From Podocnemis expansa (lineage: Eukaryota > Chordata > Testudines > Podocnemididae), in contig ML682059.1 of assembly GCA_007922195.1 (NCBI GenBank), positions 12,575,181 through 12,639,180 on the forward strand: a DNA stretch of 64,000 bases, read 5' to 3'. Below the pieces are notes generated by a model. The model was not told where the DNA came from. It ran no database searches and worked only from the letters and a program-made list of their open reading frames with translations. The translations under genes were made by a program, and so were the position numbers. Numbering within the stretch: the stretch's first letter is position 1; every line of letters begins with the position of its first letter. This document shows positions 15,201-64,000 of this stretch, piece after piece.

Positions 15201-18200
15201 GGGATACGGCTGGCTCAAATTCCAGGGAAAGGAAGGAGAAAGTGCTTCATTTCTAAGCTGGTTCAATATATGAATATTTTAACATTTGAATTCTAGTTTT
15301 TTGCTGTCTTCATAGAATCATAGAAACTGGAAGGGACCATGAGAGGTTATCAAGTCCAGTCCCCCGCACTTGTGGCAGGACCAAGTACCTCCTTAAACTG
15401 TCCCTGACAGATGCTTGTCTAACCTGTTCTTTAACACTTCCAGTGATGGAGATTCCAAAACCTGCATAGGCAACTTAATCCAGTGGTTAATCACCCTGAC
15501 AGTTAGGAATTTTTTGCTAATGTCTCACCTAAACCTAACAGATTTATTTTTCGCATGACATGACTCCTTGTTTTGTTTTGTTTTGTTTTGTTTTGTTTTG
15601 CTGGACTAGACTAACATGGCTATCCCTTTAGAAATTAACCTAAACCTTCCTTTCTGTAATTTAACTCCTTTGCTTCTTGTCCTGTCATCAGCAGTTGAGA
15701 ACAGTTTTTCTCCCTCTTCCTCTTGACAGCCTCTTAGATACTTGAAAATTGTTATCATGTTCCCTCTCAGTCTTCTCTTTTCTAGGCTAAAAAAAACCTA
15801 GCTCTTTCAGTCTTCCCTCATAAGTCAAGTGTTCCAGACCTTTAATCATTCGTATTGCTGTTCTCTGGACTTTGTCCAGTTCATCCACATCTTTCCTGAA
15901 ACAAGGCATGCAGAACTGGACACAATATTCCAGCTGAGTCTTAATCAGAGTGGACTAAAACAAGAACTACTACTTGCCTTTCTTACAGTACTCCTGTTAA
16001 TACATCCGAGAATGATGTTTGCTGTTTTTGCAACAGTGTTATACCATTGACTCCTGTTTAGCTTGTGGTCTACTATGTGGTCCCCATTTCATATATGTAC
16101 AATGGACTGTTCTTTCCTAAGTGGAGTACTTTGCACTTGTTGTTATTGAATTTCATTCTGTTTACATCAGACCATTTTACCAGTTTGTCCAAATCATTTT
16201 GAACTGTGATCCTATCCTCCAAAACACTTCCAACCCCACGCAGCTTGGTATCATCGGCAAACTTTATAACTGTACTCTTTTTGCTATCATCTAAATCACT
16301 GATGAAAATATTGAACAGAACTGGACCCAGAACCAGTCTCTTCAGTACTCCACTCCTTCCAGCATGACTGGACCATTGATAACTACTCTCTGGCGTTTGT
16401 TATCCAGCCAAATTTTTACCCATCTTACAGTAGCTCCATCCAGGCTGTATTTCCCAAGTTTGTTAATGAATTTTCCCATAGTTATTGTAGTTATATTTAA
16501 AGTGTAGGTATTCTCAGAAAAGTGACTTTGTAAAAATGGTGCTGCCTTACTCAGCAGATCTGTCCACCATCTGTAGTTCATCAAATCTGCTGATTTCAGT
16601 GACAAAAATAAAGTATTTTTATTCCTCTTAGCACTATATCATGAAAACAGCTAAGAGAGGAGGAGTGGAAGTCAGCTTCTCCTTATGTATAATCAGATCA
16701 GAATGGTTTGCTATGTTCCAGTTACTTTTTACAGCTTACAGAAGCTTTTACATGCAAGAAGAAAAGAATTCAACTTTGCTGTCAGAACCCAGGCAGGAAT
16801 TGCAGGGCTACTAGTTGCGGAGAAGGGGCGGAAGAAATCCCCAATAATTTTATGTGAAAATGCAGCACAGTTGATATGAAAATCATTGAGCCACAATAAA
16901 CATGGAACACCACAAAGCCATTTTTGCAAAGTCATCTTTATGAATAGAGGAATTATAATTCAGTGACATAGTCCAAACTAAGAACAAGTGGTTATTTGTG
17001 AGGGGTTTTGCTTTGTTTTGTTTTATGCAATTTTTAATCTGCTCTTATAAACTGCTCATTCTTGTGTCAGAATGTCCAGTAAAACTACTGGATGGAAGTT
17101 TACTGTTGTTTTCATTTACAACAGATGGAACAGGCTGCTGCCATAGAACTAGGTGATGAGAGCAAACTCACCAAGATGCTGGCCTTGAGACCTTTGGACA
17201 AACATATCAGTGAACACAAGGATGTGAACAAAGTTATGGTGCAGCTTACCACAATAATTTCATCTCTTAAAACTGATACAGTGGATATTTTGAAGAGCTT
17301 TGCTAAATTCTCCAGCATCTGGAATCAGGTTAAATATATATGGTGATGATAAATATCTGCCAGTTTATTGCAAAACATGCTACTTTTTACTAAGTAAACT
17401 GATCTGCTTTTGGTTACATTAGTAAATTATGTTTCCCGTAAACTGTATATGATTTTGCTTGTCTTGTGTTTTCCCCCCTCAAACATTTTTTGAGTAATAG
17501 GTTTATTTTTCATACTTAAGTGTTCACTATACTTTAAGATTTTACAGCATAAGGTTGATACTTCAGCCTTAATATTCCCCTTCCTCTCTTATTGACTACA
17601 TAAATGACCACGATTTCTGATGAACTATGCCAGAACAACAAGATGGATGAAGTAATATATTGTAGTGGTCAGAAGAAGACAGAAAACCAAAATCCACCCT
17701 GAATCTTTCTGACAGAAGCAGAAAGGCATGCCACAGGAATGTGCCTCTGCTGAAAAGAGCCATCACCTCCTCCAGCATTGCCTCTGGGAAATCAAAGACT
17801 GCAGAGAGGTTCCAAAGAGTGAGCTGACTAATCCTCCCTGAATGTATCAACAAGGCTTCAGATGTAGGCACCAGCTGCTGCACAGAGCTTTCATTCACCT
17901 TCACAGAAAAGATAAGCTGAATAGAGAAAAAACAAGCTAGGACTGAAGATCCTAAACCAGAACGGGGTCCTGGCAGGTGGATTGGGTTTTGCTCTGGGTT
18001 GAGCCCCATCACATACTTGTTGAAATCTGAGGAATCTCTTACCCAGTAATATCATGTGAGATCAACCCTGTTACCTCCTGAGTAGGGAAAGCTGGTGCAG
18101 GGAAACATATATTAGCAGTGCCTCCTTGAGTGGAAACAAACTACCAAACTTCATGCCAAAGAATGAGAGAGTTTGTCTGATCCTGAATGCCATCTCTAAC

Positions 18201-27200: not shown

Positions 27201-30200
27201 ACTGAGCAGAATTGGCTCTTAGGTTAATATATTAGGGGTGGTTTGGGAGAATATTAAAGGTTAGCAAAATTCTTATATTTTTCAATCACCAGTATTTCAC
27301 AGAAACAGAAGAGGCTGGGAAACAAGTAGGCTTCTGTGAGGCACACCCAGCATAAACCTATGCATTTATTGGGCATGGTTGCCCAGAAAATATGTTAGAT
27401 TTACAAGACCTGATACCTTTTCCAACAGCAGAAGAATAGCAAAAAAAAAAAAAAAAAAAGGATTTTTTTTAAACTTGTTATACTGGGAACTTGTCAGCCA
27501 CAACAGTAGCGCTTTAAAACACTATGGACTAAGTTGTCTTGTTCCTCAACAAACCCTTTACATCGAAGGTGAAAAACTAAGTCAAATACTTTGTACAGAT
27601 GCTTCCTACAGGAGATTGGATTACTTAGCCTTCTGGAAGGTTCAGGGACATCACCTTGCATTCATGGGGTTGCCTGGAATCTGGGATGATTGGTAGTTCA
27701 ACTTGGTAGATCCACACAGAGTGTCTGCCCTGCTCCCCACAATAACATGGTATTTTAGTGACTGTGCTACCACTGGTGTCTCTCAGGGGCAACAGCAGCT
27801 GCAAATCTGAAGGTAATGTGGCTTTGAGTTGTCACAAAAATGTCTTCTGGAAGATCCAGTGGAACAGCTATGCCCTCCTGTGGGTAGTCATGTCCTGAAG
27901 CTTCTACTAAGCCCCTGATACCTCGTATTCAACAAAAGAGCTGATGAAGAGGTGCACTCTCCTCTCTTTCTAAGATTTCTTGCTTTATTTCATGAGTGAT
28001 GCACATTTCCTTCTAAGCCCAGGTATAGTTCATATACAAATACAAATTTTACCTTCTTTTGCACTCATGAAAGTCCAATAACCTCTTCACAGCATTACTG
28101 GCTAAGTGTAATTGATGGCAGAATTTGGCCCATAGAACAGGTGAAGCATATTCCAGTCTTGAAATGTAATCATTTTGAGCAAGTTTAATTTATTATTCCA
28201 AACAGGTACAATTCCTTTTGAATTCTGAATTTGGTCTGTGAGTTTTAATTGCTTTGATAATATATGTTACATTAACTTCAGTGTAATAAAACACAGTAAC
28301 TTGATATTCAGGATATCTGCATCAGTGCTGTTAAAGAAAAGGATATTGAAGCAAAACTGAAATATGTCATTGGTGAATGGAGCACTCAAGTCTTTACGTT
28401 TGGTCAGTTCAAAACCAGAGGAGAACTGCTCCTGAAAGGCTCAGATACATCTGAGAAGATAGCATTGATGGAAGATAGTCTCATGATTTTAGGGTCCCTC
28501 ATGAGCAACAGGTACAAAACTAAAGAATATATTATATAAGTATAATTAGTACCAATAAGATACAACAACCTTATTTTTTTTTAAACTCATGTTTATTTTA
28601 TAGGTACAATGCACCATTCAAGCCCATGATCCAACAGTGGGTCCAGAAATTGGCCAATGCAACAGAAATAATTGAAAACTGGATGACTGTACAAAACCTC
28701 TGGATTTACCTTGAAGCTGTTTTTGTTGGGGGAGACATTGCAAAGCAGCTGCCTCAGGTCAGTTGATTTACAGTAGCAATATATGAAGGCACAATATCGT
28801 GATAGGTAGACAAACCACTGTACCCTTTAAATAACAAGAAGTTAATCTATATGAAGTCTATACTAATTATACTATACTATACTCAGGAGAAACTACCACA
28901 GATATTATTAGAAGGAGCTTTTTCTAGAGTAAGGTCTGCAGGGTTGGATGCTTAGGGCTTGAATCAAAACGACAAGGGAAGACACTTGAAAGTTAAGACT
29001 GAAATGTTTATCTTAATTCATGTTGTTCCAAAGGGGCAGCTGTGTTAGTCTAGTACAGTAAAACAAACAAGAGTCCTGTGGCACTTAAAGACTAACACAT
29101 TTATTAATTTATATAAAATAAATAAACGTGTTAGTCTTTAAGTGCCGCAGGACTCCTTTGTTTGTTTTAATTCATCCTCTATTATTCAGGTATTATATCA
29201 CATATTGGTGGAGGGGTAAATTTTGGCTAATGCTGTGATAATGTGATCCCTTATTCTGCCTGACCCCCTCCCTTACACATGTTTTCATTCCATATTGCAT
29301 TCCATAGTGCTGAAAGTTGGAATAGCTTTTGCAAGAGGCTGTACGTTAGGGTCATTGCTAGGCCTGGGCAGCCACTCACGTATGTACATACATAAGTATG
29401 TGTTTGTATCTATAACCTGAATTAACAGCAAAGAAGGCCTTACTCTGCTACGTCTTTTCCATGATGTCAGTTGCAGAAAACCTAAAGATTGATCTCACTC
29501 TGACTTTCTGGGTGAGGTAGAATGAGAGCAATAAACTACTTCTGTTTCTCCTGGTAGGGTTTACATGTGTGTCAGCTAGCCAGAATTTGACTTTTGGCAC
29601 ATAGGATCATATGCTGCTTAAAGATGTTTTAGGCGTTATAATTAAATATCTATGGTTTCCATTTTTCATAACCCAGAACATTTTGTTTTGTGATCAGCTA
29701 AACTCATCTTTGCTGTTATTTACAATTATAATAAATTGCCTCTTTGGTCCCACAGTATATTTATGGGATAACATTCATAGTGGAGAAAATAAGTGGCTTT
29801 TGCAGATGATTAAACACCGCATCAAAGCTGTTGCATTAGATAACTGCATAGGCCACTTCTTGTAAGTATACTGCATGAACATTATTCCTTTTGTACAAGA
29901 AGAATTATAAAAAATCACATGATAAAGTCCAAAAAAAATACGTCTTTTCTGGTCATGTAAGGATTTGAAAATCCAGCTTCCTTCATTTACAACACTTTGT
30001 GGATGGCTCATTTAACTTTGGAACAGAACATGAATAATAGTTTTCAGGAGTGACCTGTGTGAAAAAGCCATGTTATGACTAGAACTGGTGTTTTATTGTC
30101 CATAATGTTTTGTTAGATTTAGAAGAGGGTGCTATTTGACTTTTCTGGTCAGAGATTGATTGAAATCCTATTGTATAGCCACTTAGTGCTAATTAAAACC

Positions 30201-54200: not shown

Positions 54201-56128
54201 CATTTGTTGTAATAATTTGTGACTACAGAAGAGGAGAACTCTGTCTGCCAATCAGTTCTTGCTGAGCACAGTTGCTCTTTCAGGAGTGCAGTGATTCCTG
54301 GTGGTGATCAGTCCCACGCTCTACTTCAGGTGGATCCTCTCAAACAACTTCAGGCATGCCTTTATTGGCCCCTTACACTGTTGGGCCTCCATGTGCTGCA
54401 AAGACTGTCAGCTCCCCGCCCCCCCCGCGCGCCCCTGGTGCTGTTTATAATATTTACAGGAAATCCAGGCTTTGATCGTGATGGCTGTAAAAGCTCAGGC
54501 TTCTCTGTGAATGTGTTCATAAGTCTGTTTTATTGAGTTTTTGCTCCTCCTAATTTCCAAAGGGGTGGCCATGTTAGTCTAGTCCAGCAAAAAAAACCAA
54601 AGAGTCATGTGGCACTGTTAGTCTTTAAGTGCCACGCAACTCCTAGTTTTTTTTCCTCCTTCTGCTACTGTATTATCACACTCTCTTAGCTTCTCCTCTT
54701 CTACATCATATGTCCAAAATAGACTGTATTTATATATAGCCTGGTATACTGTATCTAACAAAATTCTTGTTGTTCCCCCTCCTTTTCTCACAGGTTTAGC
54801 CCAGTCGGGTGCATGGGGCTGCTTTGATGAATTTAATCGCATCGAACTTCCTGTTCTATCAGTAGCTGCTCAACAGATCTATATTGTACTTCAGTGTAAG
54901 AAAAATAAGAAGCCCCAATTTGTCTTTACTGACGGTGATGTTGTTGACATGGACAGAGAATTTGGCATATTTCTGACCATGGTATGTGCGTGTGAATAAT
55001 TGTTGTCATAGGACAGATTCTTGTTTCCCATACCCATGAAAATAGTCTTACGGGAGTATTTGTAGGTCATCAGTGGGACTACTTGTGTGAGGAAAGCAAT
55101 CAGAATTTCAAGGATAGTGTATTGGCTCATGAATAGCATTGACATCCTCTATTGCACATATCTCTAACGGAGGAATTGCTGTACTGGGTAATAGTCATAT
55201 TTCCCTGATACATCCACATGTTTTAAGGTACTTCTTTTTGAAAAACTGAATATTGAAAACTTGTCAGGCTGAGATGAAAAAATCCAAGTACTAAATATTT
55301 TTACAAACAGGAGCAAAACCAAAACAAACAAACAAACAAAAAGGAGACATGGTTGGCTCTTCCAAGACTCATGATAGTCTGTTGTCCCATCATCCTCTAC
55401 CTCAGAATTTAGAATTTTTGGCATAAGTCCTTCAATACCGGGGATGGCGCAAAGCTGCTCCAGTCCAGTAACTGACCATTGGAGGATTCTTTCTGGGAAG
55501 GGATCAGTGCACACACCCCCTCTGCCTGCCAGCATACTGGGTATAGGAAACAGGGGAGCAGAAAGATGACATAAACACCTCTTTGCCTCCCTGTCTCTAT
55601 AGCTGTGCAAAGTATTCTAAAGTCATGATTCAAGAACGAGGCATTTAAAATTGTTTTAAAACTATGAATAATGCTACAGTGATTTGCCAGAGTGTCACAT
55701 TTACTGGACATTCCAAGGGCTTCAGAATAGTGGGTGTGGTGTTACATATTTCTTAAGTGGCAGTATTTTAGACAAAATTGGATAGTGGTATGTGAGTGCT
55801 GTATGCTCTGGTTGTCATTTTCCAGCACTCCTGTGTTTTTATCAAATCATACCCAGGATGGAAAAAAAAACCCAAATCCTCTCTGCTTGTTGGGTAAGTG
55901 ATCATTTATTATTTTGCACCCTGTGTCTTTCAGAACCCTGGTTATGCAGGACGTCAGGAACTTCCAGAAAATCTAAAGATTCAGTTTCGTACAGTAGCTA
56001 TGATGGTGCCTGACCGTGGTATTATTATGAGAGTTAAACTGGCAAGTGCAGGATTCAGAGACAATCAAATCCTTAGTCGAAAATTTTACACACTCTACAA
56101 ACTTTGTGAAGAACAGTTATCTAAACAG
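100..56128 (+). CDS. DNAH5/DNAH8-like: Axonemal dynein heavy chain, DNAH5/DNAH8 class, partial (24 internal exons)
   Basis: Motor subunit of the ciliary/flagellar outer dynein arm; couples ATP hydrolysis in its AAA ring to sliding of doublet microtubules. The span contains 24 exons with acceptor AG and donor GT at each visible junction; all 23 phases fit and none contains a stop. The joined reading frame is about 1,342 codons, against roughly 4,600 for the complete family, so about 30 percent is here: distal tail, linker and start of AAA1. Diagnostic blocks are the tail segment ending SLPEDEP-like (here TLPEDEP), the linker segments [20 protein letters not shown] and [17 protein letters not shown], Walker A GPAGTGKT, Walker B FDEFNR and the [15 protein letters not shown] sensor segment. 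Introns range from 79 bp to 16.7 kb. Family assignment is firm. Orthology to DNAH5, DNAH8 or a third DNAH5-like paralogue is not resolved. Start and stop codons lie outside the window. Confidence 0.95.
1030..1755. repeat. GC-rich interspersed element with imperfect terminal inverted repeats
   Basis: Sharp GC-rich block in AT-rich intron. The left edge reads CAGTTAAGGAGGCCCCATAG and the right edge CTATAGGGGGCTCCTTAAAG; the reverse complement of the right edge matches TTAAGGAG-CCCC-ATAG in the left edge. This suggests an old DNA transposon or a similar dispersed repeat rather than a gene. Several overlapping open frames on both strands are composition artefacts: they resemble no family and are mutually incompatible. 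Confidence 0.45.
2190..3010 (+). mobile_element. CR1-type LINE 3' fragment, sense
   Basis: Matches the 3' part of a CR1-type retroposon as known from turtles and crocodilians: a segment on small messages held against the genome (GCACATTGGAAAACAC, GGTCATTGAGGATAGTTC), then AAAATGATCAGG, GAGAGATTAAAAAGACTAGG and AACTAGGGGTCACC, and finally TTCATGGAG..GGTCCATCAATGGCT. Frame is broken throughout. Recognised from memory, without alignment. Confidence 0.75.
4324..4545. mobile_element. hAT-like non-autonomous DNA transposon
   Basis: Left end CAAGGGTTGGCAATC and right end GTGGCTAACCCCTA are imperfect inverted repeats of the GGGGTTGGCAACC kind. They are flanked by CCCTACAG and TCCTATAG, matching at 6 of 8 positions, consistent with an 8 bp hAT target duplication. 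The interior is GC-rich and non-coding. Confidence 0.5.
5447..5685. repeat. Tandem array of about 64 bp units, four copies
   Basis: Diverged units start near 5447, 5508, 5575 and 5638. Each has an AAGCAGT(C/T)-type head followed about 12-20 bases later by CTCCTTAA-CAGGAGTCC-like sequence. The array stops where the 5682 transposon begins. Confidence 0.6.
5682..6013. mobile_element. hAT-like MITE with GTTCCCTCTAA ends
   Basis: Left end CAGAGTTCCCTCTAA and right end TTAGAGGGAACAGTG form inverted repeats of a type known from hAT/Charlie-like MITEs. The interior is AT-rich with GTGCACA/TGTGCATG motifs near both ends and no coding capacity. I could not confirm a clear target duplication. Confidence 0.65.
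6425..6615 (+). repeat. MIR/CORE-like SINE relic
   Basis: Resembles the MIR tail: ATCCTCATAACACTCTTGAG, then GACTGAGATGCAGAGATTA, AATTGAACCTGGATTTCCAG and a closing GTGCATGGGC. Strongly diverged. Confidence 0.5.
6655..7705 (-). mobile_element. CR1-type LINE fragment, antisense, with RT coding relic
   Basis: The plus strand is the reverse complement of CR1 ORF2. The minus strand 7122-6862 keeps an 86-codon open frame with the non-LTR reverse-transcriptase blocks [30 protein letters not shown] and [10 protein letters not shown], corresponding to the RT region ahead of the YADD active site. Upstream and downstream frames are broken. Part of a 5'-truncated, inactive copy. Confidence 0.88.
8741..8948 (+). 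CDS. DNAH5/DNAH8-like: Dynein exon 2 (tail)
   Basis: Acceptor TTGCTTAG, donor CA/GTAAGT. Encodes [13 protein letters not shown] followed by [12 protein letters not shown] and [12 protein letters not shown], the last matching the conserved LPEDEP segment of the DNAH5/DNAH8 tail. It ends with two bases of a codon, completed in exon 3. Confidence 0.93.
9067..9530 (+). repeat. Possible solo LTR-like block
   Basis: Starts TGTAGCAGGGTAG, has TATATAAAG at 9169 and GC-rich downstream sequence, resembling LTR promoter architecture in reptile retroelements. No paired LTR, primer-binding site or clear target duplication was found, so this is tentative. Confidence 0.25.
9611..9802. mobile_element. Short foldback (Penelope-like-derived) insertion with TSD
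   Basis: Two inverted arms carry the family sequence: GCAAGGAGTC, GACTAACAGATTTATT, then CATCTGATGAAGTGGGATAT, AATAAATCTGTTAGTC, GACTCCTTGC. The right end is TACTAACAGGGCTGCTCC. CTATCCAG occurs on both sides (9603-9610 and 9803-9810), an 8 bp target duplication. Confidence 0.75.
10321..10408 (+). CDS. DNAH5/DNAH8-like: Dynein exon 3 (tail)
   Basis: Acceptor CCTTTGTAG, donor CAG/GTAAGA. Completes a Gln codon from exon 2 and reads [20 protein letters not shown] then KPEDKSNLQ. Ends in phase 0. Weakly conserved linker between tail helices. Confidence 0.85.
10528..10651 (+). CDS. DNAH5/DNAH8-like: Dynein exon 4 (Cys-rich tail segment)
   Basis: Acceptor TTTTCAG, donor AAA-A/GTAGGT. Encodes a cysteine cluster, [11 protein letters not shown] with further Cys before and after, then [13 protein letters not shown]. 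The C-x2-C-x2-C plus tyrosine pattern resembles the CxxCxxC stretch I recall in DNAH8. Ends one base into a Ser codon. Confidence 0.9.
10782..10945 (+). CDS. DNAH5/DNAH8-like: Dynein exon 5 (tail)
   Basis: Acceptor TATATAG, donor CAG/GTAATA. Reads [16 protein letters not shown] and ends with [18 protein letters not shown], matching the IPNVVM-P-LEDIQ block of the family. Phase 0 at the end. Confidence 0.94.
10946..11881 (+). other. Intron 5 with a transposon remnant next to exon 6
   Basis: Mostly AT-rich without features. At 11808-11838 lies a remnant of the foldback family end (GGCAGCCGTGTTAGTCTAG), 43 bases before the exon 6 acceptor. Confidence 0.65.
11882..11974 (+). CDS. DNAH5/DNAH8-like: Dynein exon 6 (tail)
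   Basis: Acceptor CTTTTTAG, donor CAG/GTAGGG. Encodes [20 protein letters not shown] followed by [11 protein letters not shown]. This matches the I-x-VN-x-I-x-IPQW helix of the family. Phase 0 on both sides. Confidence 0.92.
12335..12476. mobile_element. Foldback-family copy
   Basis: Starts CCAAAGGCATAGCTGTG, followed by TTAGTCTAATCCAGCAAAA, GGCACTTTAAGACTAACAG and CATGAGCTTTCGTGGGAC; ends at AATCCCACTTCAGA. One arm only. No target duplication was identified. Confidence 0.7.
15312..16500 (-). mobile_element. CR1-type LINE 3' region, antisense, interrupted
   Basis: The plus strand begins CATAGAATCATAGAAACTGG, the reverse complement of the ATTCTATG-repeat 3' terminus of CR1. It continues through TCCCTCTCAGTCTTCTC, GACTTTGTCCAGTTCATCC, CAGAACTGGACACAATATTC and AATATTGAACAGAACTGGAC. 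Frames are degraded. It is split by the insertion at 15536-15637. Confidence 0.88.
15536..15637. mobile_element. Foldback-family fragment inserted into CR1, with TSD
   Basis: Carries TAACAGATTTATTTTT, a (TTTTG)n run at 15571-15600 and CTGGACTAGACTAACATGGC. ACCTAAACC is present on both sides (15527-15535 and 15638-15646), a 9 bp duplication of CR1 sequence. Confidence 0.8.
17125..17328 (+). CDS. DNAH5/DNAH8-like: Dynein exon 7 (tail)
   Basis: Acceptor ACAACAG, donor CAG/GTTAAA. Encodes 68 codons starting [15 protein letters not shown], then [20 protein letters not shown] and [10 protein letters not shown]. The SEHKD-x-x-K-x-V-x-LL and F-x-FS-x-W patterns match the family. Phase 0. Confidence 0.92.
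18040..18950 (+). mobile_element. L2-like LINE reverse-transcriptase relic
   Basis: Scattered reading-frame pieces on the plus strand spell non-LTR RT blocks. Around 18230-18310 are [13 protein letters not shown] and LDPSQS; around 18655-18810 are a degenerate form of the YADDT active-site block (here beginning A-N-N-T-L-V), then [15 protein letters not shown] and LGKTK. Order and spacing agree with L2/CR1-clade RT. Many stops and frameshifts. Confidence 0.6.
19340..19445 (+). repeat. Dispersed-repeat tail (TTTTAAGCTCTTTGAG type)
   Basis: Resembles a widespread amniote repeat tail: TTTTAAGCTCTTTGAGACAG, a diverged middle, then GGGTGCTATAAATGATAAAT. A longer antisense relative lies at 30340-30790. 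Confidence 0.4.
19472..19552 (+). CDS. DNAH5/DNAH8-like: Dynein exon 8 (tail)
   Basis: Acceptor TTATGTAG, donor TCT/GTAAGT. Reads [20 protein letters not shown] then TQINYFS, matching the KEF-x-x-x-P-x-x-SEF-x-x-QI block. Phase 0 on both sides. Confidence 0.94.
19632..20036 (+). CDS. DNAH5/DNAH8-like: Dynein exon 9 (tail, longest exon)
   Basis: Acceptor ATTCTTAG, donor CAG/GTACTG. 135 codons including [39 protein letters not shown] and [20 protein letters not shown]. The RLNR-x-x-x-DL-D-x-R and [11 protein letters not shown] blocks are strongly conserved in DNAH5/DNAH8. Intron 8 before it is only 79 bp. Confidence 0.96.
20191..20309 (+). CDS. DNAH5/DNAH8-like: Dynein exon 10 (tail)
   Basis: Acceptor TTATGTCAG, donor GAA/GTGAGT. 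Reads [20 protein letters not shown] and then [14 protein letters not shown]. Ends two bases into a Lys codon completed in exon 11. Confidence 0.94.
20310..21898 (+). other. Intron 10
   Basis: No gene. GC-richer stretch around 20500-20900 with overlapping meaningless frames; otherwise AT-rich. I recognise no repeat family with confidence here. Confidence 0.55.
21899..22035 (+). CDS. DNAH5/DNAH8-like: Dynein exon 11 (start of linker region)
   Basis: Acceptor TTTTTGCAG, donor CACAG/GTAGTA. Encodes [20 protein letters not shown] and [11 protein letters not shown]. The EASDRL-x-x-F and [11 protein letters not shown] blocks are hallmarks of DNAH5/DNAH8. Ends one base into a Glu codon. Confidence 0.96.
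22036..25073 (+). other. Intron 11
   Basis: Contains one foldback MITE (22842-23070). The remainder is AT-rich intron with a few short open frames that resemble nothing known. Confidence 0.6.
22842..23070. mobile_element. Foldback MITE with TATGTCTACACTGC ends
   Basis: Left arm TATGTCTACACTGCAGTTAA and right arm TTAACTGCCATGTAGGCATA are inverted. Inner sequence continues the palindrome (TTTAATTGCTGTGTAGATGT against ATATCTACACCAGAATTAAA). About 230 bp, non-coding. A similar but more decayed element may lie at 38743-39032. Confidence 0.7.
25074..25236 (+). CDS. DNAH5/DNAH8-like: Dynein exon 12 (linker region)
   Basis: Acceptor TTGGAACAG, donor ACAG/GTAAAT. Encodes [20 protein letters not shown], then [20 protein letters not shown] and DFQN. 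Ends two bases into an Arg codon. Confidence 0.96.
25237..26173 (+). other. Intron 12
   Basis: No recognised feature. A locally GC-richer stretch at 25530-25700 carries no open frame of note. Confidence 0.55.
26174..26285 (+). CDS. DNAH5/DNAH8-like: Dynein exon 13 (linker)
   Basis: Acceptor CTTTTTAG, donor AAA/GTTAGT (a weaker donor than its neighbours). Reads [20 protein letters not shown] then [18 protein letters not shown]. This is the start of the DHC_N2/linker domain with its W-x-x-(F/Y)-x-DL-K-x-IDDF motif. Phase 0 at the end. Confidence 0.96.
26558..26608. repeat. (TC)n/(TA)n microsatellite
   Basis: TC dinucleotide run to 26586 with one interruption, followed by TATATATATATATA. It lies in intron 13, about 60 bp before exon 14. 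Confidence 0.9.
26671..26799 (+). CDS. DNAH5/DNAH8-like: Dynein exon 14 (linker)
   Basis: Acceptor CTTTTCTAG, donor GAG/GTACAC. Encodes [20 protein letters not shown] and [16 protein letters not shown] sequence (here [21 protein letters not shown]). The RHW-x-x-I-x-x-x-TG block is typical of the linker. 43 codons, phase 0. Confidence 0.97.
26800..28311 (+). other. Intron 14
   Basis: Contains an A-run at 27440-27458. Nothing else is recognised. The open frame at 27379-27696 runs through the A-run and resembles no protein. Confidence 0.55.
28312..28511 (+). CDS. DNAH5/DNAH8-like: Dynein exon 15 (linker)
   Basis: Acceptor GATATTCAG, donor ACAG/GTACAA. Reads [33 protein letters not shown] and [15 protein letters not shown]. 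Matches the DICISA-KE-DIE-KL and GELLL-G blocks. Ends two bases into an Arg codon. Confidence 0.97.
28604..28757 (+). CDS. DNAH5/DNAH8-like: Dynein exon 16 (linker)
   Basis: Acceptor TTTTATAG, donor CAG/GTCAGT. Encodes [19 protein letters not shown] and [20 protein letters not shown], a near-invariant linker segment in outer-arm gamma chains. Intron 15 is 92 bp. Phase 0 at the end. Confidence 0.98.
29022..29166. mobile_element. Foldback-family insertion with TSD
   Basis: Starts GTTGTTCCAAAGGGGCAGC, then TGTTAGTCTAGTACAGTAAA. Two inverted arms of about 45 bp (29060-29105 and 29117-29166) contain GAGTCCTGTGGCACTTAAAG and its reverse complement. TTAATTCAT flanks both ends (29013-29021 and 29167-29175), a 9 bp target duplication. 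Confidence 0.82.
30340..30790 (-). repeat. Antisense dispersed repeat
   Basis: Contains GGCACTGTACAAACACAGAA, GATCTTGCAATCCAAGTATA and CAGCATGGGAGAAAGCACAA, a repeat I recognise as widespread in turtles and crocodilians in this orientation. The open frame at 30580-30897 on the minus strand is part of it. Class is uncertain (SINE/LINE tail or other). Confidence 0.5.
31899..32165 (+). CDS. DNAH5/DNAH8-like: Dynein exon 17 (linker)
   Basis: Acceptor GTGTTTCAG, donor CAG/GTACAA. 89 codons including [40 protein letters not shown] and [17 protein letters not shown]. One of the most conserved linker stretches. Phase 0. Confidence 0.98.
32390..32518 (+). CDS. DNAH5/DNAH8-like: Dynein exon 18 (linker)
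   Basis: Acceptor TATTCTAG, donor CAG/GTAGTA. Reads [20 protein letters not shown] and [16 protein letters not shown]. The family has a SREGE/SQEGE motif here. Several substitutions set it apart from mammalian DNAH5 and DNAH8 as I recall them. Confidence 0.95.
32519..32913 (+). other. Intron 18
   Basis: 395 bp. I see no repeat or gene in it. Confidence 0.6.
32914..33129 (+). CDS. DNAH5/DNAH8-like: Dynein exon 19 (linker)
   Basis: Acceptor TGTCTTCCAG, donor AAG/GTTGTA. Encodes [20 protein letters not shown], then [20 protein letters not shown] and [10 protein letters not shown]. The FPAQ-GLLGIQM-WT block is near-invariant. Phase 0. Confidence 0.97.
33130..35003 (+). other. Intron 19
   Basis: No recognised gene or repeat. 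A G-run lies at about 33622-33631. Short open frames here are not coherent. Confidence 0.55.
35004..35150 (+). CDS. DNAH5/DNAH8-like: Dynein exon 20 (end of linker)
   Basis: Encodes [20 protein letters not shown] and [18 protein letters not shown], both diagnostic. The acceptor GGGAAAG/GTCATG lacks a good polypyrimidine tract; it is chosen because it alone keeps frame with exon 19 and yields the conserved K-V/I-M-x-x-TNQ-x-FL start. Donor TTG/GTGAGT. Confidence 0.94.
36796..36983. mobile_element. hAT-like MITE (CAAGGGCTCTCAACC ends)
   Basis: Left end CAAGGGCTCTCAACCTTTTT and right end CAGTTTGAGAACTTCTG are inverted repeats of the hAT CAGGGGTTCTCAAAC type. Flanks CATTAGTC and CACTAATT match at 6 of 8 positions. 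A reverse-orientation relative lies at 52925-53115; shared interior GGGACC..TTTGAAAATATTTCAGGCT. Confidence 0.7.
37195..37385 (+). repeat. MIR/CORE-like SINE relic
   Basis: CCCAGTTTAGGAATGAGACA, GTGGTGGAATGACTTGCCCA, AGGTACCTGAGCAAGTCACT and TTCAGGATCCTCTGACTC follow the MIR tail. Preceded by a short TTAATTAATTAAT run. Confidence 0.65.
37524..37696 (+). CDS. DNAH5/DNAH8-like: Dynein exon 21 (linker to AAA1 junction)
   Basis: Acceptor GTTACAG, donor ACAG/GTAATC. Reads [40 protein letters not shown] and ITPLTD. The TPLTDR segment leads directly into AAA1. Ends two bases into the Arg codon. Confidence 0.98.
37935..38113 (+). CDS. DNAH5/DNAH8-like: Dynein exon 22 (AAA1, Walker A)
   Basis: Acceptor TGTCTCCAG, donor AAAG/GTAAGG. 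Starts [19 protein letters not shown] and contains the P-loop [13 protein letters not shown], followed by [20 protein letters not shown] and GRIYKG. This is the main ATP-hydrolysing site of dynein. All catalytic P-loop residues are present. Intron 21 is 238 bp; the intron after this exon is 16.7 kb. Confidence 0.99.
40900..43100 (-). pseudogene. Ty3/Gypsy gag-pol relic (zinc knuckle, RT, RNase H)
   Basis: Read on the minus strand, in order. Around 43015-42965 is a gag zinc-knuckle-like CFSCGK..SRHC interrupted by a TGA. Around 41975-41935 is SIVVVKKP of the RT entry region. Near 41885-41770 is [23 protein letters not shown]. Near 41640-41490 is a block ending [20 protein letters not shown]. 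At 41465-41420 is [13 protein letters not shown]. Near 41340-41095 come RNase H fragments ([30 protein letters not shown]). The order matches Ty3/Gypsy. Several stops and frameshifts. No LTRs or primer-binding site were identified, so the ends are approximate. Confidence 0.82.
43212..43386 (+). repeat. DIRS-like inverted terminal repeat, left copy
   Basis: Inverted match to 48050-48222 over about 170 bp with few differences, for example ATTGGTCGGAAAAAACTTGT in both. Contains GGCTATATATACGGCCACCT, a TATA-like motif present in both copies. Left-specific outer sequence CGAGATGGGCTGCTC distinguishes it from the right copy. Confidence 0.88.
43428..43540 (+). repeat. DIRS-like internal complementary region
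   Basis: First half (43428-43484) is the reverse complement of the outer left end with about two mismatches. Second half (43485-43540) reads GGAGTGCTGCTCAGATGGAT and matches the reverse complement of the right end (GAGCGCTGCTCGGATGCAT) better than the left. So the region equals the reverse complement of the two outer ends joined. Confidence 0.78.
46101..47890 (-). pseudogene. DIRS-type gag (degenerate)
   Basis: Start ATG at 47890-47888 gives [14 protein letters not shown], then [10 protein letters not shown] and [14 protein letters not shown]: the Cys-rich N-terminus typical of DIRS gag. A Pro/Ser/Thr-rich middle follows (open 47638-46856), then the gag core in a different frame (46868-46101), with [40 protein letters not shown] and [13 protein letters not shown], matching the SADSAART and LPFDG-x-LF blocks. 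Disruptions: TAG at 47713-47711, a frameshift somewhere between about 47050 and 46900, and TAG at 46874-46872. It would package or bind element RNA in an active copy; it is inactive here. Confidence 0.85.
48050..48222 (-). repeat. DIRS-like inverted terminal repeat, right copy
   Basis: Reverse-complement partner of 43212-43386, carrying CCGTATATATAGCCATGGGT and AAGTTTTTTCCGACCAATCT. Similarity stops near GAAGAAGAAC at 48222. Confidence 0.88.
48280..48560 (-). pseudogene. Possible retroelement integrase fragment
   Basis: On the minus strand a piece near 48390 reads [11 protein letters not shown], resembling the W-x-x-x-x-ID-x-IGPL start of retroelement integrase cores, and further on [13 protein letters not shown]. 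Upstream, PGHKG with a diverged continuation could be the HHCC region. Too short and decayed to be sure. Its position upstream of the Gypsy gag/RT relic does not fit a single element. Confidence 0.25.
52925..53115. mobile_element. hAT-like MITE, reverse relative of 36796-36983
   Basis: Left end CTGGGGTTCTCAAATTGG and right end AAGTTTGAGAACCCCTG are inverted repeats. Flanks TGCTGCAG and CACTACAG agree at 5 of 8 positions. Interior shares AGCCTGAAATATTTTCAAAG with the reverse of the other copy. Confidence 0.75.
53221..53253. repeat. (TTTTG)n microsatellite
   Basis: Six or so TTTTG units, preceded by a CT-rich run from 53205. Confidence 0.9.
54557..54650. mobile_element. Foldback-family copy near exon 23
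   Basis: CCAAAGGGGTGGCCATGTTA, GTCTAGTCCAGCAAAA and GTCATGTGGCACTGTTAGTC, then TTTAAGTGCCACGCAACTCC. It ends about 145 bp before exon 23. Confidence 0.75.
54794..54981 (+). CDS. DNAH5/DNAH8-like: Dynein exon 23 (AAA1, Walker B)
   Basis: Acceptor TTCTCACAG, donor ATG/GTATGT. Completes a Gly codon and reads [33 protein letters not shown] and EFGIFLTM. The Walker B FDEFN acidic pair is intact. 62 complete codons plus the completed glycine. Confidence 0.99.
54982..55933 (+). other. Intron 23
   Basis: 952 bp. A (CAAA)n run at about 55320-55341; nothing else recognised. The minus-strand open frame of 148 codons at 55164-55610 resembles no protein. Confidence 0.6.
55934..56128 (+). CDS. DNAH5/DNAH8-like: Dynein exon 24 (AAA1, sensor region)
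   Basis: Acceptor GTCTTTCAG, donor CAG/GTAAAG. Starts [20 protein letters not shown], then [20 protein letters not shown] and [22 protein letters not shown]-x-ELP is the sensor-I segment of AAA1. The next expected segment (a VHYDFGLRN-like start) is not in the window. Confidence 0.99.
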
Positions 56129-56577: not shown

Positions 56578-57654
56578 AAAGAAGAGAACTTGGATTTTTT
56601 GAATTTTAACCAATTTCACAGTCTCCAGAAATCACATTCCTGTGTTTGGCTCATCCTCCGGGGTGTTATGTAGAAGTATACCATTTTATCTAGTGAGAAT
56701 TATTTAAATGTAGGCAAGGTACAGATTTTTGTTGAGAGTCTATACAGAAGTTGCTGAATTTTGAATTTTCTGTCCAGGATGCCCAAAGGGGTATTCTGAG
56801 AGAGGAGACATAAACAGTTGAGTTAAAGCACAAACTATGTGTCCTGCACAGGATCTAGTGAAAAGATTCATGTTGGGCCAGATTCACCACTGTATTATTT
56901 TCATTGTACCCCATAGTTTCTGCATTGACTTTAGTGACGTTATTTTGGCATATGGCTTGAGCAACATGGGGGAGATCATGCCCATTATTTCAGAGAGAAG
57001 AAGTGTATAGGTCAGGATGTTTTTCTTTTCTCGCCATGTTAACTCTACCACCCACACATCCAGACTCTGTTAACTGCCTGGCCTTGTTATTTTTGACAGT
57101 AGACTGAATTTTTTTTTTTCAGGCTAATTTCACTCATATAGCAGCTCTCTGTTGGAGATTGATTTTCTGCAGGGTCATCTCAGCTGCTGGCTTTCTTGTA
57201 ATATTGCCTGGTGGGTCTGCATTGTCTGTGAACTTGATTTTTGAGCCAATATACATTCCCATGTATTGATCCAGCATTAATGGTAACAATTTGCATATTG
57301 CATATGTGATCTTGCTTCATCAGTCCAGGCAACAGTCTACTTTTAGCTTTCTAGTAGGCCCTTTGAGATAGCTAGAGAGTGTTTTCTGTAGGGACAACAT
57401 CCATTACGTAGGGAGAGAGGGTTTAACTGTGTGGGAGGGTGTTGTGGAATGAGAGGACTTGTCTCAGAGAAACTCTGTGCTGGGTACTGATTTGTCACAA
57501 GATTTAGGAATATTTATGTATGCACCATTTCCTGGATAAGCAAAACAGTTGTCTGTAGAGATATTGTATTGGACATGCTCTGGCCTGTTTCCCCAGGGTA
57601 GGTCTGTGGGATGTTGTATTGGATTTTCTCCTTGTCTGAATGGTTTGTCTCTTT

Positions 57655-57820
57655 TCAAAGGGGTAGCCGTGTTAGTCTAGTTCAGCAAAACAAATAAAGA
57701 GTACTGTGGCAGTTTTAAAGACTAACAAGTTTGTTTATTTCATGAACTTTCGTGGGAGGAAATCCCACTTCATCAGATTTTCTCCCACAGAAGTTCATGC
57801 AATAAATAAATTTACTCAGG
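57655..57820. mobile_element. Foldback-family insertion
   Basis: CAAAGGGGTAGCCGTGTTAG, TCTAGTTCAGCAAAACAAAT, TTTAAAGACTAACAAGTTTG, GAACTTTCGTGGGAGGAAAT, then the inverted arm TCAGATTTTCTCCCACAGAA and AATAAATAAATTTACT. Target duplication not found. Confidence 0.75.
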
Positions 57821-58014
57821 GCTCCAAATAGCTTAGTCTCCAGAGCTCTGATGCAGCAAAGTTATTTCTACTGCCACGCTCTTGAATATCCCACTGTGGG
57901 ACTAAGGTCATCCTGCAGCTGTGTGTGTGATTATGTAAACAGATAGCTCATAGTACGAGTTAATTAAGTTCAAAAGTGATAACAAAAAGTTATGTAGGGG
58001 TTTCACTTGACTGA

Positions 58015-58880: not shown

Positions 58881-61848
58881 CATCCCTAATAACAACAGAA
58901 AGCTTGATACCAGTTGAAAAGATGAGATTTCTAGCTGTGCAATGGCGCACACATCAGTTGCTTCTGGTCCTTGAAAGTCCAAACAAACAGAACTTCAAAG
59001 TAAAGAAAACCTCTTTTAGGTGCTTCTATTTTTTTCTCTCCCATAATTCCCTTGTATTTGGAGTCTTGAAACCAAATTTTCAATGAGGGTTAGGCACCTA
59101 AACTGCTTAGGTGCTTTTGAAAATTCCACTAAACACTTGCCTTCGTCTTTGAGTATCTAAATACATTTGAAAATCTGGCCTTGGTAACTAAGGCAGTTTG
59201 AGTCTTTGAGGCAAGTTGGTCCTCCCCTTGATCCAGAGCAGAGACTTGTCTGAGGAAACAGATGACAAAGAGAAATGGCCAACAAGCAGGCTGGACCAGT
59301 AACCAGATGTCAGTAGTCTTCCTAGGACTATGAAGGGGTAAGTGCCATGACCTTCACAGTAAAGAAATTCAAAACAAAGCCTGAAGAAAGAGACAAACCA
59401 GACCTGGAGAAAGTAGAGCAGCAGTGTGTATGGGTGCATACCCTGTGATGTTGTGCTGGTGTGAAATTTGTCACAGAAGTGGAAGTAAAATTTCTATGAG
59501 TTAGAACTCAAAGGAGGCTGCTGAGTGCCTAGAAAAGAGCAGGAAAAACTTCCTGTACCTGTGCAGTTCCTGAATATAGGCAGTTTATCCATATGGCTGG
59601 TGACCCAGGCCAAGGAGAATCTGTGAAATGATTTGCCTAAACCAAACTTCATTTGGAGGGACCTGTATAAAGCCAACAGGAGTAGCTGATACTGGATACT
59701 ATGTCCACTGTTGCGGCTTTATGCTGGTACCAAAAAAATACCTCACTGACAACATAAGTTCTGAACATAATTTGCTGAATTTACACTCTAAGAATAAATG
59801 AACCTACCACTGAGGAAAGGCTGACTGCTAGGTACGAGATTGTGTTTGAGGGTCTTTTTGGATTTGAAGGAGAGCGTTACCTGAATACAGCTCCCAGACG
59901 ATGCTGGTTGTACAAAGGTGCTGAACTATATCCTTGATGGTACTGGAAAAAGCAGGAGTCATAACCTGGGTTGGGAAACCCACACACTTGCATCAATTGC
60001 CTTCAGATCATATAGGAAAAGAATAACTGTTTGCAAGTGTGTTTGGACCTACAGGACCTTAATAAAGCTGTGTACACACAGTGTGATATTTTAGCCATTT
60101 TGCTATTCAGAAGAGTCTTCACTGTCCTTGATTGAAAGTATGACTGTTGGCAAATAAATTTGGACAAACATGTCTGCGCATTCAATACCCCACATGAAGG
60201 AAACTTTTGATATCTGCCATTTGGAGTCAAGGTGCCGCAAGTTAGATCTTTCAGCAGACTCAGCTAGCTGTGGTGGGCTGGCTGGTGCTGGAAGGGAAGG
60301 GAGAGCAGAGCCCTAGAGCCAGAGAGGCCAGGATCCATGGTGCTTCTGCTTCTCCCCCCTGGGCTAGCTGCTCTGCCCCAGCAGATCCTGGAACACAAGC
60401 TGAGGCCTGAGGCAGACCAGCCAGATGGCAATGCAGCACTCCAGAAGTGGGGGTTCCTCCTGTCCATAAGTGCTGTTGGATAGCATGGGAGCAGTGCAAA
60501 AACCAGTCCGAGATGGGAAGGATGATGGGATGGAGTAAAGAGGCGGGTACAGCAGTATGCAACATGCAATCCAATGGCAGCAGCACTCCAGGGGTGGGTA
60601 CTCCCTTCCCCTGGGAGTTCTGTCAGATGGAGGCAGGGCGGGACGACCACAGAGAAGGCCCTGGTCAGCAGCAGGCTGGGCAGTGCGAGCAGCAGATTGG
60701 ACTGGATTTTTGTGGGGCCACAGGGCCACCTTTTATCCTGGGGCCCAGGGCTGTAGCCCCTAAAGCCCCTGAGTTAATCCAGCCATGTATTTCTGAAGAG
60801 TATTAAGCAGAATTAAACCTCTAAGCTATATATGTAAACCCCTGAATATAGATGTTAATGACAGCAGCCAGTCAGCCTGAGAGAGAGAACAATGCAATTA
60901 ATTATTAACAAATATTTAATACATCCACAAACATTTGCAGAAAGTATTTGGAATACATTTGAATAACTTCTTAAGAATTATTTGGTAATAAACCTGTTGT
61001 GTTCTGTATACAATCTCTCCCTACTTCGCCGAGTACTATAATAGCCTTCAACAGAGCATGCTTTTGTAGTTTTATGTTTATATCTTACAGCAGATACGCA
61101 GACACATTCTGTCTGCTCTTCTCAGAGACAGTTTCTCCATGTCTGTAGTACAGCCTTGAAATGTATGTATGTGTCACCTGGAGGCTCCAGAGTCAGAAGA
61201 GAATGACAGCCTCAACTCCCCTCCAAATGCTTCAGAATCTCTTTGGCAAACAGCAGGTTCTTATAGCCAGCAGCAAGTACAAGTTTTGAGCCAATAGCTG
61301 ATGATCATCTTAATTTCCATCCGAATAGGGAATCTGTAGCCTGTATCCGAACTATCATCCTCAGAAGAAGGTGAGCTTTCTAGAGTCAAATAACATAAAG
61401 CTAGAACAAGATACTCCAGAGGGATTTTCTCTCCTGATTTGTTTGACTGCCTATCTGTTGAAGGATAATTGCTAACCTTACTGTGAACTCAACACAGGAA
61501 CCAGGGGAGATTCAGATAATAAGGAGACACTAACCTCTATTTTCTGATGATTATGATAGTATTTCTGCAAGCTTGGTAAGGAAAACCATTTCTAAAGTCA
61601 CCTACCATGGGGACTATCAAATATATTGTCCCTATCTATCGCACAACTTTGCTGAACATTTCCTCAAGACAAATGAATTGTGAGAAGTTTATCAGATTTC
61701 ATCATTAAGGTGTCATCATCCATCCCAGATGTCACAGGAATTATTCTACCATCTACCTGTCTGTGCCAGGACATCACCTTTGCACAGTCTGGTTGAACAG
61801 ATTACAGTCTTAATATATAAAAACCTATGAAACTGTTAAGAAAATTAT

Positions 61849-62070
61849 CAAGGAGTCTTGTGGTACTTTTAAAGACTGACAAATTTATTTATTGCATGCG
61901 CTTTCTTGGGAGAAAATTCCACTTTGTCAGACACCTGAAGGTGGAGAAAGAACTTACTGTAAATTCTGTATGTTTAACTGTCTGATGAAGTGGGATTTTC
62001 TCCCTGAAAGCTCATGCAATGAATGAATTTGTCAGTCTCTAAAAGTGCCACAAGATTCCTTGTTTGGAAC
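61849..62070. mobile_element. Foldback-family insertion with TSD
   Basis: Left arm CAAGGAGTCTTGTGGTACTT and TGCGCTTTCTTGGGAGAAAA; right arm GTCTGATGAAGTGGGATTTT and AGTGCCACAAGATTCCTTG. TTAAGAAAATTAT (61836-61848) and TTAAGAAAAATTAT (62071-62084) flank it, a 13 bp duplication with one indel. Confidence 0.82.
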
Positions 62071-62667
62071 TTAAGAAAAATTATGTGATTGTTAGTGGTA
62101 ATTCACCTTATATGTAAATTACATATGTCCTCAAAGTAGCCAACTGTATTAAAAAAGGCATCAGAGAAGCTGATGTGCATCAAAACAGCCACTCACAGAG
62201 GAAATAAGAGCTTCCACAATTAGATCTATAGCCATCTTCTTCTGGGGAAAGATGTATGGTCACATCTAAACAAATAAACAAGGCAGAGTTGTAGACATTC
62301 GTATCTTTCAGTAAGCACTACAGACTTGGCATGCAGTCTTCTGAAGATGCATCCTTTAGGAAAATGTTGCTTGATGTAGTGGTTCCCAAATAAATATCAA
62401 AATATTTGAAGGGAGGATATAGTCTTCTAATCTAGCTATTAATCTTTTTTTCTTTCTCCTTTCTTATTCTTGATTTGTAGTTTATAATTTCCCAGCAGTG
62501 AGATGTAGAAGAGAACCCACCTTAAGAATGGTAAACTTTTTGCCTGAAAATTTTCTTTCTAGAAATTGCATCTCCAGTAGTTTATCTCACCCAGAGGAAA
62601 TAGGAACATTGTACTGGGTTAATTGTTTAATATTTTGTTTAAAGTTATGAGAATACAATCAGGTGTG

Positions 62668-63332
62668 AGCTTTCATGGGAGAAAATCCAACTTCATCAGA
62701 TGCTTACAGAATGGAAGGAGTAAATGCAGGGAAGTGTAAGTCAAGGGATCAGGTCACACCACAATTAGTAAATCATCAATGGAGTGATCAGGAAGGTTGA
62801 AATGCTGACCCACTGGTTTTAGAGTATTGTGATTTCTGATATCAGATTTAGAAATCACAACACTCTAAAACCAGTGGGTCAGTATTTCAATCTTCCTGAT
62901 CACCTCATTGGTGATTTACTAATTGTGGTGCTCAGACAGATGAATACCAGATCAAGGGTTCTAAGAGAAGCTGCTGAGATTGAATTTATTTGCAAATTTG
63001 ATTGCATTGCTTAAGGGCTTAATAGGGACTTTGGATTTTTCTCTCATTCCAACAGGTGATTTGACCTCATCTTCCTCTATATGCTCTTCCCCAATGTTTG
63101 AATTTTTACAACTGCTTTGATTTGCTGTTACAGTGTGACCTGATCCCATGACTTACACTTTCCTGCATTTGTTTCCTCCCATTCTATAAGTTCCTCCATC
63201 TTCAAAGTGTCTGACAAAATGGGATTTTCTCCCATGAAAGCTCATGTAATAAAAATAAATTTGCTAGTCTTTAAGTGCCACAGGACTCCTTGTTCATTTT
63301 ACTGAACTAGACTAATACAGCTGCCCCTTCGG
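62668..63332. mobile_element. Head-to-head inverted Penelope-like insertion with 11 bp TSD
   Basis: 665 bp unit flanked by AATCAGGTGTG at 62657-62667 and 63333-63343. The left part is an inverted, internally deleted copy; the right part is a longer copy in plus orientation. They meet in a palindrome with arms of about 85 bp (62757-62840 and 62846-62930). The right copy encodes a GIY-YIG-like relic and ends in the same 3' sequence (CTCCCATGAAAGCTCATG, CCACAGGACTCCTTG, ACTGAACTAGACTAATACAG) that defines the short foldback family. Inverted, truncated dimers and variable target duplications are known for Penelope-like elements; assignment is by motif memory. Confidence 0.72.
62829..63055 (+). pseudogene. 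GIY-YIG endonuclease C-terminal relic (Penelope-like)
   Basis: Plus-strand frame reads VGQYFNLPDHLIGDLLIVVL, then REAAEIEFICKFDCIA, a TAA stop at 63012-63014, then GLNRDFGFFSHSN in the same frame. The H-FN-PDH-x-x-DL-x-x-x-VL..RE-x-x-x-I-KF..GLN pattern resembles the C-terminal half of the GIY-YIG domain fused to Penelope reverse transcriptases. The catalytic GIY-YIG start is missing because the copy is 5'-truncated. Confidence 0.55.
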
Positions 63333-64000
63333 AATCAGGTGTGCTTGCTAATTCTTGCCTGCTTGAATTATGAAAATGCTCAAGTGTACATCAAGAGGAA
63401 GAGGTGTGCCCTGAAGGACGTGGGTTTCATGGTTGTAACATTTCAGTTGCTACTGGAATCCTGCAGATATGTGCCTTCAGAAAGATGTTACTGGATGAGA
63501 AGCGATCTTCCAGCATTTCCTCTTTTGTATCTAGAATTACTCTGCACTTCTTCCTCTCCTAGTAGGTGCTTCTTTTTGCCTGTCTCAGCTCTGCTAGGTC
63601 AACATTAAGTATCTTCCTTGAGGACATGCCACTTGCAGATAAACTGCTGTGTATGGATTCATTAGGAGTTAATTTTGTACTTCCTTTTCTCTGTAATGAT
63701 AGTAAAATGGTAATAATTTTCTGTCTTTATCACAGTCCATCGGCATTGCTTGTAGCGGCAGTGTGGGGATTGCTACTTGGTAGAAGATTGGATCAGGCAT
63801 GTTTGACATGGAGAGCCTAAAATACTTGGCAGCTTGTGGGAGCAACTCTGTTCTGCTCTAAACTAGCTATGTGGGAGAATTATTCCAACCTATTGCCAAA
63901 GTGACTTCAATTTGCTTTACACAAACATGATTTAAAACATATGAATATGCAGAATTGTGAAGCGAGGGAGGACGTGACTGATTTGCGTGAGCTCTCAACC

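Follow-up and report, generated by a model that had tools for sequence, protein, structure and literature searches.

Two oppositely oriented copies of one element 3' region, enclosed together by a short exact repeat, raise the question of whether such a structure inserts as one unit or by two events, and of how a unit with two opposed arms is made. The locus lies in a 64,000-nt stretch of Podocnemis expansa DNA (GCA_007922195.1, contig ML682059.1, 12,575,181-12,639,180, forward strand), which we analysed whole and refer to as the window. As listed in Table 1, both arms are flanked by one exact 11-mer, and with the boundaries set from family copies an exact match of at least 11 nt near both of them was reached by 1 of 2000 random site pairs in the window (P = 0.0005), which confirms the original prediction of an exact 11-base repeat around two opposed copies of one 3' region. 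The length of this target-site duplication (TSD) is ambiguous, as its starting AA also matches the family end ...TTTGGAA and its final TG matches ...ATGAGCTTTC; read from these letters, the target duplication may be slightly shorter than 11 bp. Because the TSD is common to both arms, it also supports the view that the unit arose in one insertion event and not in two.

Table 1. Features of the focal unit and family copies elsewhere in the window (positions of the 64,000-nt stretch)
Position	Strand	Feature	Basis
9606..9797		c1, head-to-head, TSD CTATCCAG	profile and TSD test
11798..11835	-	c2, single-orientation 3' end fragment	profile
12335..12457	-	c3, single-orientation copy	profile
15534..15633		c4, head-to-head, TSD ACCTAAACCT; left arm short and weak, E 0.034	profile and TSD test
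29026..29169		c5, head-to-head, TSD TTAATTCAT	profile and TSD test
54555..54654		c6, head-to-head, TSD TCCTCCT	profile and TSD test
57653..57823		c7, head-to-head, no TSD found	profile and TSD test
61841..62065		c8, head-to-head neighbour, TSD TTAAGAAAA, no clear tail on either arm	profile and TSD test
62657..62667	+	target-site duplication, left copy AATCAGGTGTG	11 bp, exact
62668..62849	-	left arm, element 3' region, tail-less	outer end within hammerhead-like motif
62838..62849	-	12 nt at junction, 5' end of left arm, minus-strand reading AAATCTGATATC	natural copies
62850..63011	+	GIY-YIG endonuclease C-terminal coding piece, RNHNTLKPVGQYFNLPDHLIGDLLIVVL...ICKFDCIA then stop	ORF and protein alignment
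62850..63332	+	right arm, element 3' region, tail at its end	family-copy comparison
63211..63246	+	degenerate hammerhead-like motif of pLTR	by eye; Rfam: no match
63300..63332	+	tail, optional ~33-nt 3' extension	family profile
63333..63343	+	target-site duplication, right copy	exact repeat of AATCAGGTGTG

The two arms had been described as joined at a long palindrome, and this held for their complementarity: the 81-nt blocks 62757-62837 and 62850-62930 are 93% complementary across a 12-nt spacer, and further inverted blocks are formed by 62713-62759 with 63133-63179 and by the outer hammerhead-like motif. The centre of the palindrome, however, is imperfect and the arms are unequal. At the junction site AAATCTGACATC or a close variant of it precedes AGAAATCAC in the majority of 30 natural copies, so that the spacer belongs to the left arm as its 5' extension and the right arm starts after it; a perfect palindrome centred on GATATC was rejected for this reason. 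At its 5' end the tail-less arm is accordingly 12 nt longer than the tail arm. The left arm is otherwise without about 200 nt, equivalent to ~62931-63132 of the right arm, and it further lacks the terminal portion of the pLTR as well as the tail, its outer end lying earlier than that of the right arm, inside the hammerhead-like motif and off the usual site. Reading the ~200-nt gap as an intron was rejected by eye, with GTG shared at its boundaries, no GT..AG fit and coding sequence lost; an internal deletion or a template jump, with the GTG as microhomology, is the preferred reading.

The right arm holds one frame open until the stop at 63012, and this frame is likewise uninterrupted in the left arm over the part that both share. 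The encoded piece aligned with one turtle protein (P0004; 26 of 51 residues identical, E 3e-18) and gave no alignment with the protein P0012, and its 55 amino acids found no Pfam hit and no homologues in the protein search. Nine open pieces from longer sister copies of the same genome were scanned against Pfam; one of them, from locus L070, matched GIY-YIG at the cut-off (22.6 bits, E 1.3e-4), and no such match came from the other eight. The reverse transcriptase (RT) domain RVT_1 was matched in the sister copy L067 (E 8.3e-6) with 26.1 bits, under its cut-off of 29.6, the focal unit being truncated before any RT. A stop-free stretch of 180 amino acids in L071 returned 14 protein hits, of which the 11 from turtles (Caretta, Malaclemys, Chrysemys, Lepidochelys, Natator, Pangshura and Terrapene among the genera) were 53-69% identical over 36-96% of the query. 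When three L071 homologues were rescored with Pfam, GIY-YIG was found in all, in one of them just under the cut-off; the likeness of the turtle proteins to L071 is one of protein identity. Searches of viral_contigs and genome_contigs for relatives returned none, and the PDB search gave nothing useful. We also noted a 106-aa GIY-YIG fragment filed as Listeria monocytogenes (P0010, 345-base contig), 61% identical over 56% of the L071 query, which probably represents animal DNA that entered a bacterial assembly.

The coding piece is followed by a 3' untranslated part, the hammerhead-like motif, the pLTR end and the tail of ~33 nt. The core-like motif, which is degenerate and was recognised by eye, we take to be hammerhead-like; the Rfam hammerhead had no match in 60000-64000, 57640-57830 and 9600-9815 at E <= 10, nor anywhere in the window at the gathering score. 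Family arms terminate either at or near profile position 123, the tail end, or mostly at 86-97, and thus carry a pLTR with the optional tail of ~31-37 nt that marks PLEs (EN+). In L091, L105 and L107, and partly in L080, L087 and L115, the tail runs past TTTGGAA to ...GGAACTT or GGAACTTGG, and the profile may miss about 5 nt of it. Judged from sequence, the coding content together with the pLTR, tail, inverted arm and TSD supports a Penelope-like family, and the focal unit represents an insertion of a Penelope-like retrotransposon (PLE) of the endonuclease-bearing type, truncated at the 5' end. The resemblance to Penelope-like elements that had been suggested for the unit is thereby borne out, by its GIY-YIG coding content and by an architecture of pLTR, tail, inverted arm and TSD of which accounts for PLEs are found in PMC3846280 and PMC11167929. 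The focal architecture has thus already been described, and the added value here lies in counts over many units.

Such counts could begin in the window itself. Scanning it with a profile of the terminal ~137 nt revealed 9 family loci in 64 kb, 7 of them head-to-head and 2 in single orientation. Exact TSDs of 8, 10, 9, 7, 9 and 11 bp surround 6 of the 7 head-to-head units, and none was found at c7 or at the single copies c2 and c3 (random pairs in the window reach at least 7 in 3.2%). Apart from the family, 19632-20045 (+) matches the dynein axonemal heavy chain 2/5/8 coiled coil (Pfam E 5.6e-12), which probably places the window within or close to a vertebrate dynein heavy chain gene. Between 42000 and 48000 the G+C content rises to 0.49-0.61 and long frames are open on both strands (46101-47939), three of which were scanned and had no Pfam match.

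The assembly searched comprises 2.39 Gb in 1487 contigs, and with the focal unit as query yielded 12154 first-look candidates; the scoring covered 40 of them. Three samples were drawn, each from the best 40 scored by similarity and hence not random: sample A (39 loci) from a 123-nt single-orientation query with the tail included, sample B (38 loci) from the focal unit, giving long copies, and sample C (38 loci) from a 73-nt query with the tail excluded. An opposed arm was present no more than 450 bp upstream in 21/39 loci of A, 3/38 of B and 17/38 of C. Opposed neighbours on the tail side numbered 1/39, 3/38 and 1/38, respectively, and same-strand upstream neighbours 0, 2 and 2. Sample B is low at this limit because long element bodies push most partners beyond it; when the limit was lifted, an upstream opposed hit was present in 17/38, not all of them within one unit. 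The head-to-head counts are too low, since the profile detects only arms with a pLTR end and missed, for example, L062. The head-to-head shape is therefore common in the Podocnemis expansa copies of this PLE family, and other dimers do recur across the genome, where a single-orientation consensus would have spoken against the original prediction.

To score target duplications we allowed at most 2 mismatches, set the score to length minus 3 per mismatch and required at least 8, a value reached by 2.1% of 800 random pairs. By this measure TSDs were present at 10/21 near pairs in A, 3/3 in B, 9/17 in C and 6/7 in the window, overall at 28/48, and the scoring test detected none at the other 20/48. 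An inverted pLTR or arm within a short TSD of variable length, as in PLEs (EN+), was thus found at these 28 near pairs. The listed TSDs have an A+T content of 0.67, the window as a whole 0.59. Target duplications of 8-13 bp had been expected, and while duplications do recur at head-to-head units, their range proved wider, 7-15 bp with a median of 12.

The two arms of a unit differ regularly in their outer ends. Among 15 TSD-verified units that were not selected for the tail (sample C and window), 13 have exactly one tail (binomial P 0.0037), the exceptions being L091 with two tails and c8 with no clear tail. When unverified pairs of sample C were included (n = 17), 13 had one tail, 2 had two (L091 and L100) and 2 had neither (L085, and L099, which ends at 110). 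In sample A, where one tail is given by selection, the partner reached the tail end in 0/21 units, the furthest stopping at 107 of 123 (L031). Moreover, the tail state of one arm depends on that of the other: in A and C together the partner is tailed in 1/30 cases given a tailed main arm versus 5/7 given a tail-less one (Fisher P 0.0003), and in C alone in 1/9 versus 5/7 (P 0.035). Both arms point outward with their 3' ends; one of these lies at the tail end, and the tail-less one, by a hand count, falls at profile 86-97, a T-rich stretch, in 22/26 verified one-tail units. For a rotifer PLE, one of the inverted pLTRs was already noted to carry a tail of 31 bp (PMC3846280), and for a purified anole PLE enzyme the text of PMC11167929 describes two adjacent internal RNA start sites that bound the tail. 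The two-tailed head-to-head unit L100 was left out of the tests as its flanking DNA is mirrored too; either the locus underwent inverted duplication or the assembly is at fault here.

At their inner, 5' ends the arms are coupled yet unpolarised. Among 23 near units (16 from C, 7 from the window), with the focal arm ends taken as corrected above, the median 5'-end difference between arms was 15 nt as against 45 nt for permuted partners (P 0.0002), although the 450-bp limit on arm distance partly biases towards small differences; in sample A alone the 5' ends showed a weak rank correlation (rho 0.39, P 0.08, n = 22). Counted by hand, the 20 tail-unselected one-tail units from C and the window comprise 9 with a longer tail-less arm, 7 with a longer tail arm and 4 with both equal, with the partly tailed L099 scored as tailed and a few of the differences just 2-4 nt. 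In sample A, with its query biased towards long tail arms, the corresponding hand count gave 13/21 for the tail arm and 8/21 for the tail-less arm. Both cases occur in sample B. In L053 and L068 the tail arm far exceeds its partner, whereas in L064 the opposite is seen: within an exact 12-bp TSD, the tail arm reaches only to +60 and the tail-less arm to -367. Later deletions in one arm could imitate this absence of polarity.

Comparison of 47 units revealed that most junctions differ between loci, which indicates that the dimer is generally not itself the propagating unit and that dimers usually form anew; alignment of junctions, as had been proposed, thus bore out the recurrence of head-to-head units but not a dimer that is copied as such. 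The partner arm was the closest relative, first or tied, in some cases only. Near-perfect palindromic junctions with spacers of 0-3 nt occur at L079, L080, L083 and L113, and L079, L080 and L113 have a common junction near -12. Within the best 40 scored for the focal-unit search, the sole other match spanning query positions 10-678 was L002, a head-to-head unit with a junction unlike the focal one and a left arm without the 200-nt gap. In L062, also head-to-head, the right arm begins at AGAAATCAC as in the focal unit and the left arm ends 5-6 nt further on, but the left arm has no pLTR and the right arm no tail; the likeness of the two junctions reflects either a shared hot spot or a common ancestor followed by a small deletion.

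We think that these units are probably the product of two reverse transcriptions, one per cut strand, followed by head-to-head joining. The GIY-YIG enzyme would make staggered cuts in the two target strands, some 8-15 nt apart, and this offset would later become the TSD; the 3' ends of both cut strands would then prime reverse transcription at internal RNA sites near the 3' end of the element, a start at the distal site giving the tailed arm and a start ~33 nt upstream the tail-less one. The two truncated cDNAs would meet and be joined head to head through end joining or short annealing, and repair would duplicate the target. Priming on both strands and the subsequent joining are what we infer here from the arms and their ends; that a PLE enzyme can cut and extend both strands has been reported for the purified anole protein (PMC11167929). 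One tail per unit, combined with the fact that either arm may be the longer, argues against a simple fold-back of cDNA and for two reverse transcriptions. Several observations, however, count against two cDNAs: the coupled 5' ends, the two tails of L091, the lack of a clear tail in c8, the 20/48 pairs without a TSD and the unusual end of the short arm in the focal unit. In particular, coupled 5' ends are not predicted by fully independent cDNAs, and both cDNAs may copy one RNA. We put forward tentatively, as a possibility that may well not hold, that PLE insertion involves a division of labour, in which each insertion would take two reverse transcriptions, one per strand, with obligatorily different starts on the same or an equally truncated RNA, and the one-tail head-to-head unit would be its regular product and not an accident.

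Self-priming, which palindromic inverted junctions led the authors of PMC3846280 to hypothesise for PLEs, offers another route, in which one cDNA or antisense transcript folds and is copied back before the hairpin integrates. The four near-perfect palindromes and the coupled 5' ends agree with it, as does the preponderance of longer tail arms in sample A, favoured though this is by the query. Since a copy cannot hold sequence absent from its template, under fold-back the tail arm would have to serve as template, and the copied arm could not extend beyond it in the 5' direction, whereas the tail-less arm is the longer in 9/20 tail-unselected units, the focal one with its 12 nt included, in 8/21 units of sample A, and in L064 by several hundred nt. 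Fold-back could thus be the general route only if later deletions were frequent, and we consider it unlikely for these units, though it may apply to L079, L080, L083 and L113. That a head-to-head dimer is itself mobile and copied whole would fit the junction shared by L079, L080 and L113, and the identical right-arm start of L062, where a small deletion could unify both junctions, slightly raised our estimate for it; with different junctions in most of the 47 units, another junction and no gap in L002, and an L062 whose arms end elsewhere and lack the left pLTR and the right tail, a dimeric master nevertheless appears improbable.

The mirrored flanks of L100 are an example of inverted duplication, if not of an error of assembly, and inversion or inverted duplication after a single insertion, or two separate insertions, could in principle place arms head to head. 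Yet a single TSD encloses both arms in 28/48 near pairs, and tail-to-tail neighbours are rare, 1/39 in A and 1/38 in C versus 21 and 17 head-to-head (3 versus 3 of 38 in B), which makes such an origin very improbable. Inverted arms within an 11-bp target duplication would also be expected of elements with terminal inverted repeats (DNA transposons or foldback elements) and of twin-primed LINEs. DNA transposons and foldback elements are defined by identical terminal inverted repeats at the TSD, and here the outer ends differ, with the tail on the right and the hammerhead-like motif on the left, and lengths vary. Twin priming in LINEs leaves a single outward 3' end and inverts 5' sequence, whereas in these units both outward ends belong to the 3' region. 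As the right arm in addition encodes the end of a GIY-YIG endonuclease, we give these readings next to no weight.

Two reverse transcriptions per unit, the reading we prefer, can be set beside known systems. One close likeness is to the Poseidon PLE of Anolis carolinensis (PAc), also a vertebrate PLE with a GIY-YIG endonuclease. PAc has a hammerhead motif and two tail-defining RT starts, and its enzyme cuts and extends both target strands; in the portions of PMC11167929 concerned, PAc is reported as tandem copies and in vitro products, in contrast to the head-to-head genomic units described here. The Penelope elements of Adineta vaga, such as Pen2a_Av, have as main examples in PMC3846280 single or low-copy elements around a long ORF, whereas most units sampled from Podocnemis are short 5'-truncated ends from a family with thousands of candidates (the 12154 in 2.39 Gb). 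According to PMC11167929, steps of PLE integration beyond first-strand synthesis await validation, and the many short, TSD-flanked two-armed units of one genome allow this integration to be tested through counts. Any model of PLE integration has to satisfy the measurable constraints given by the one-tail rule, the coupled 5' ends and the unpolarised arms; our literature search, which covered few subscription papers, brought up no paper evidently on tail state versus arm length in such units. Finally, L004 and L063 are partial tandem copies, in which a pLTR end is almost directly joined to the endonuclease region of a second copy, similar to the tandem arrangement described for PLEs.
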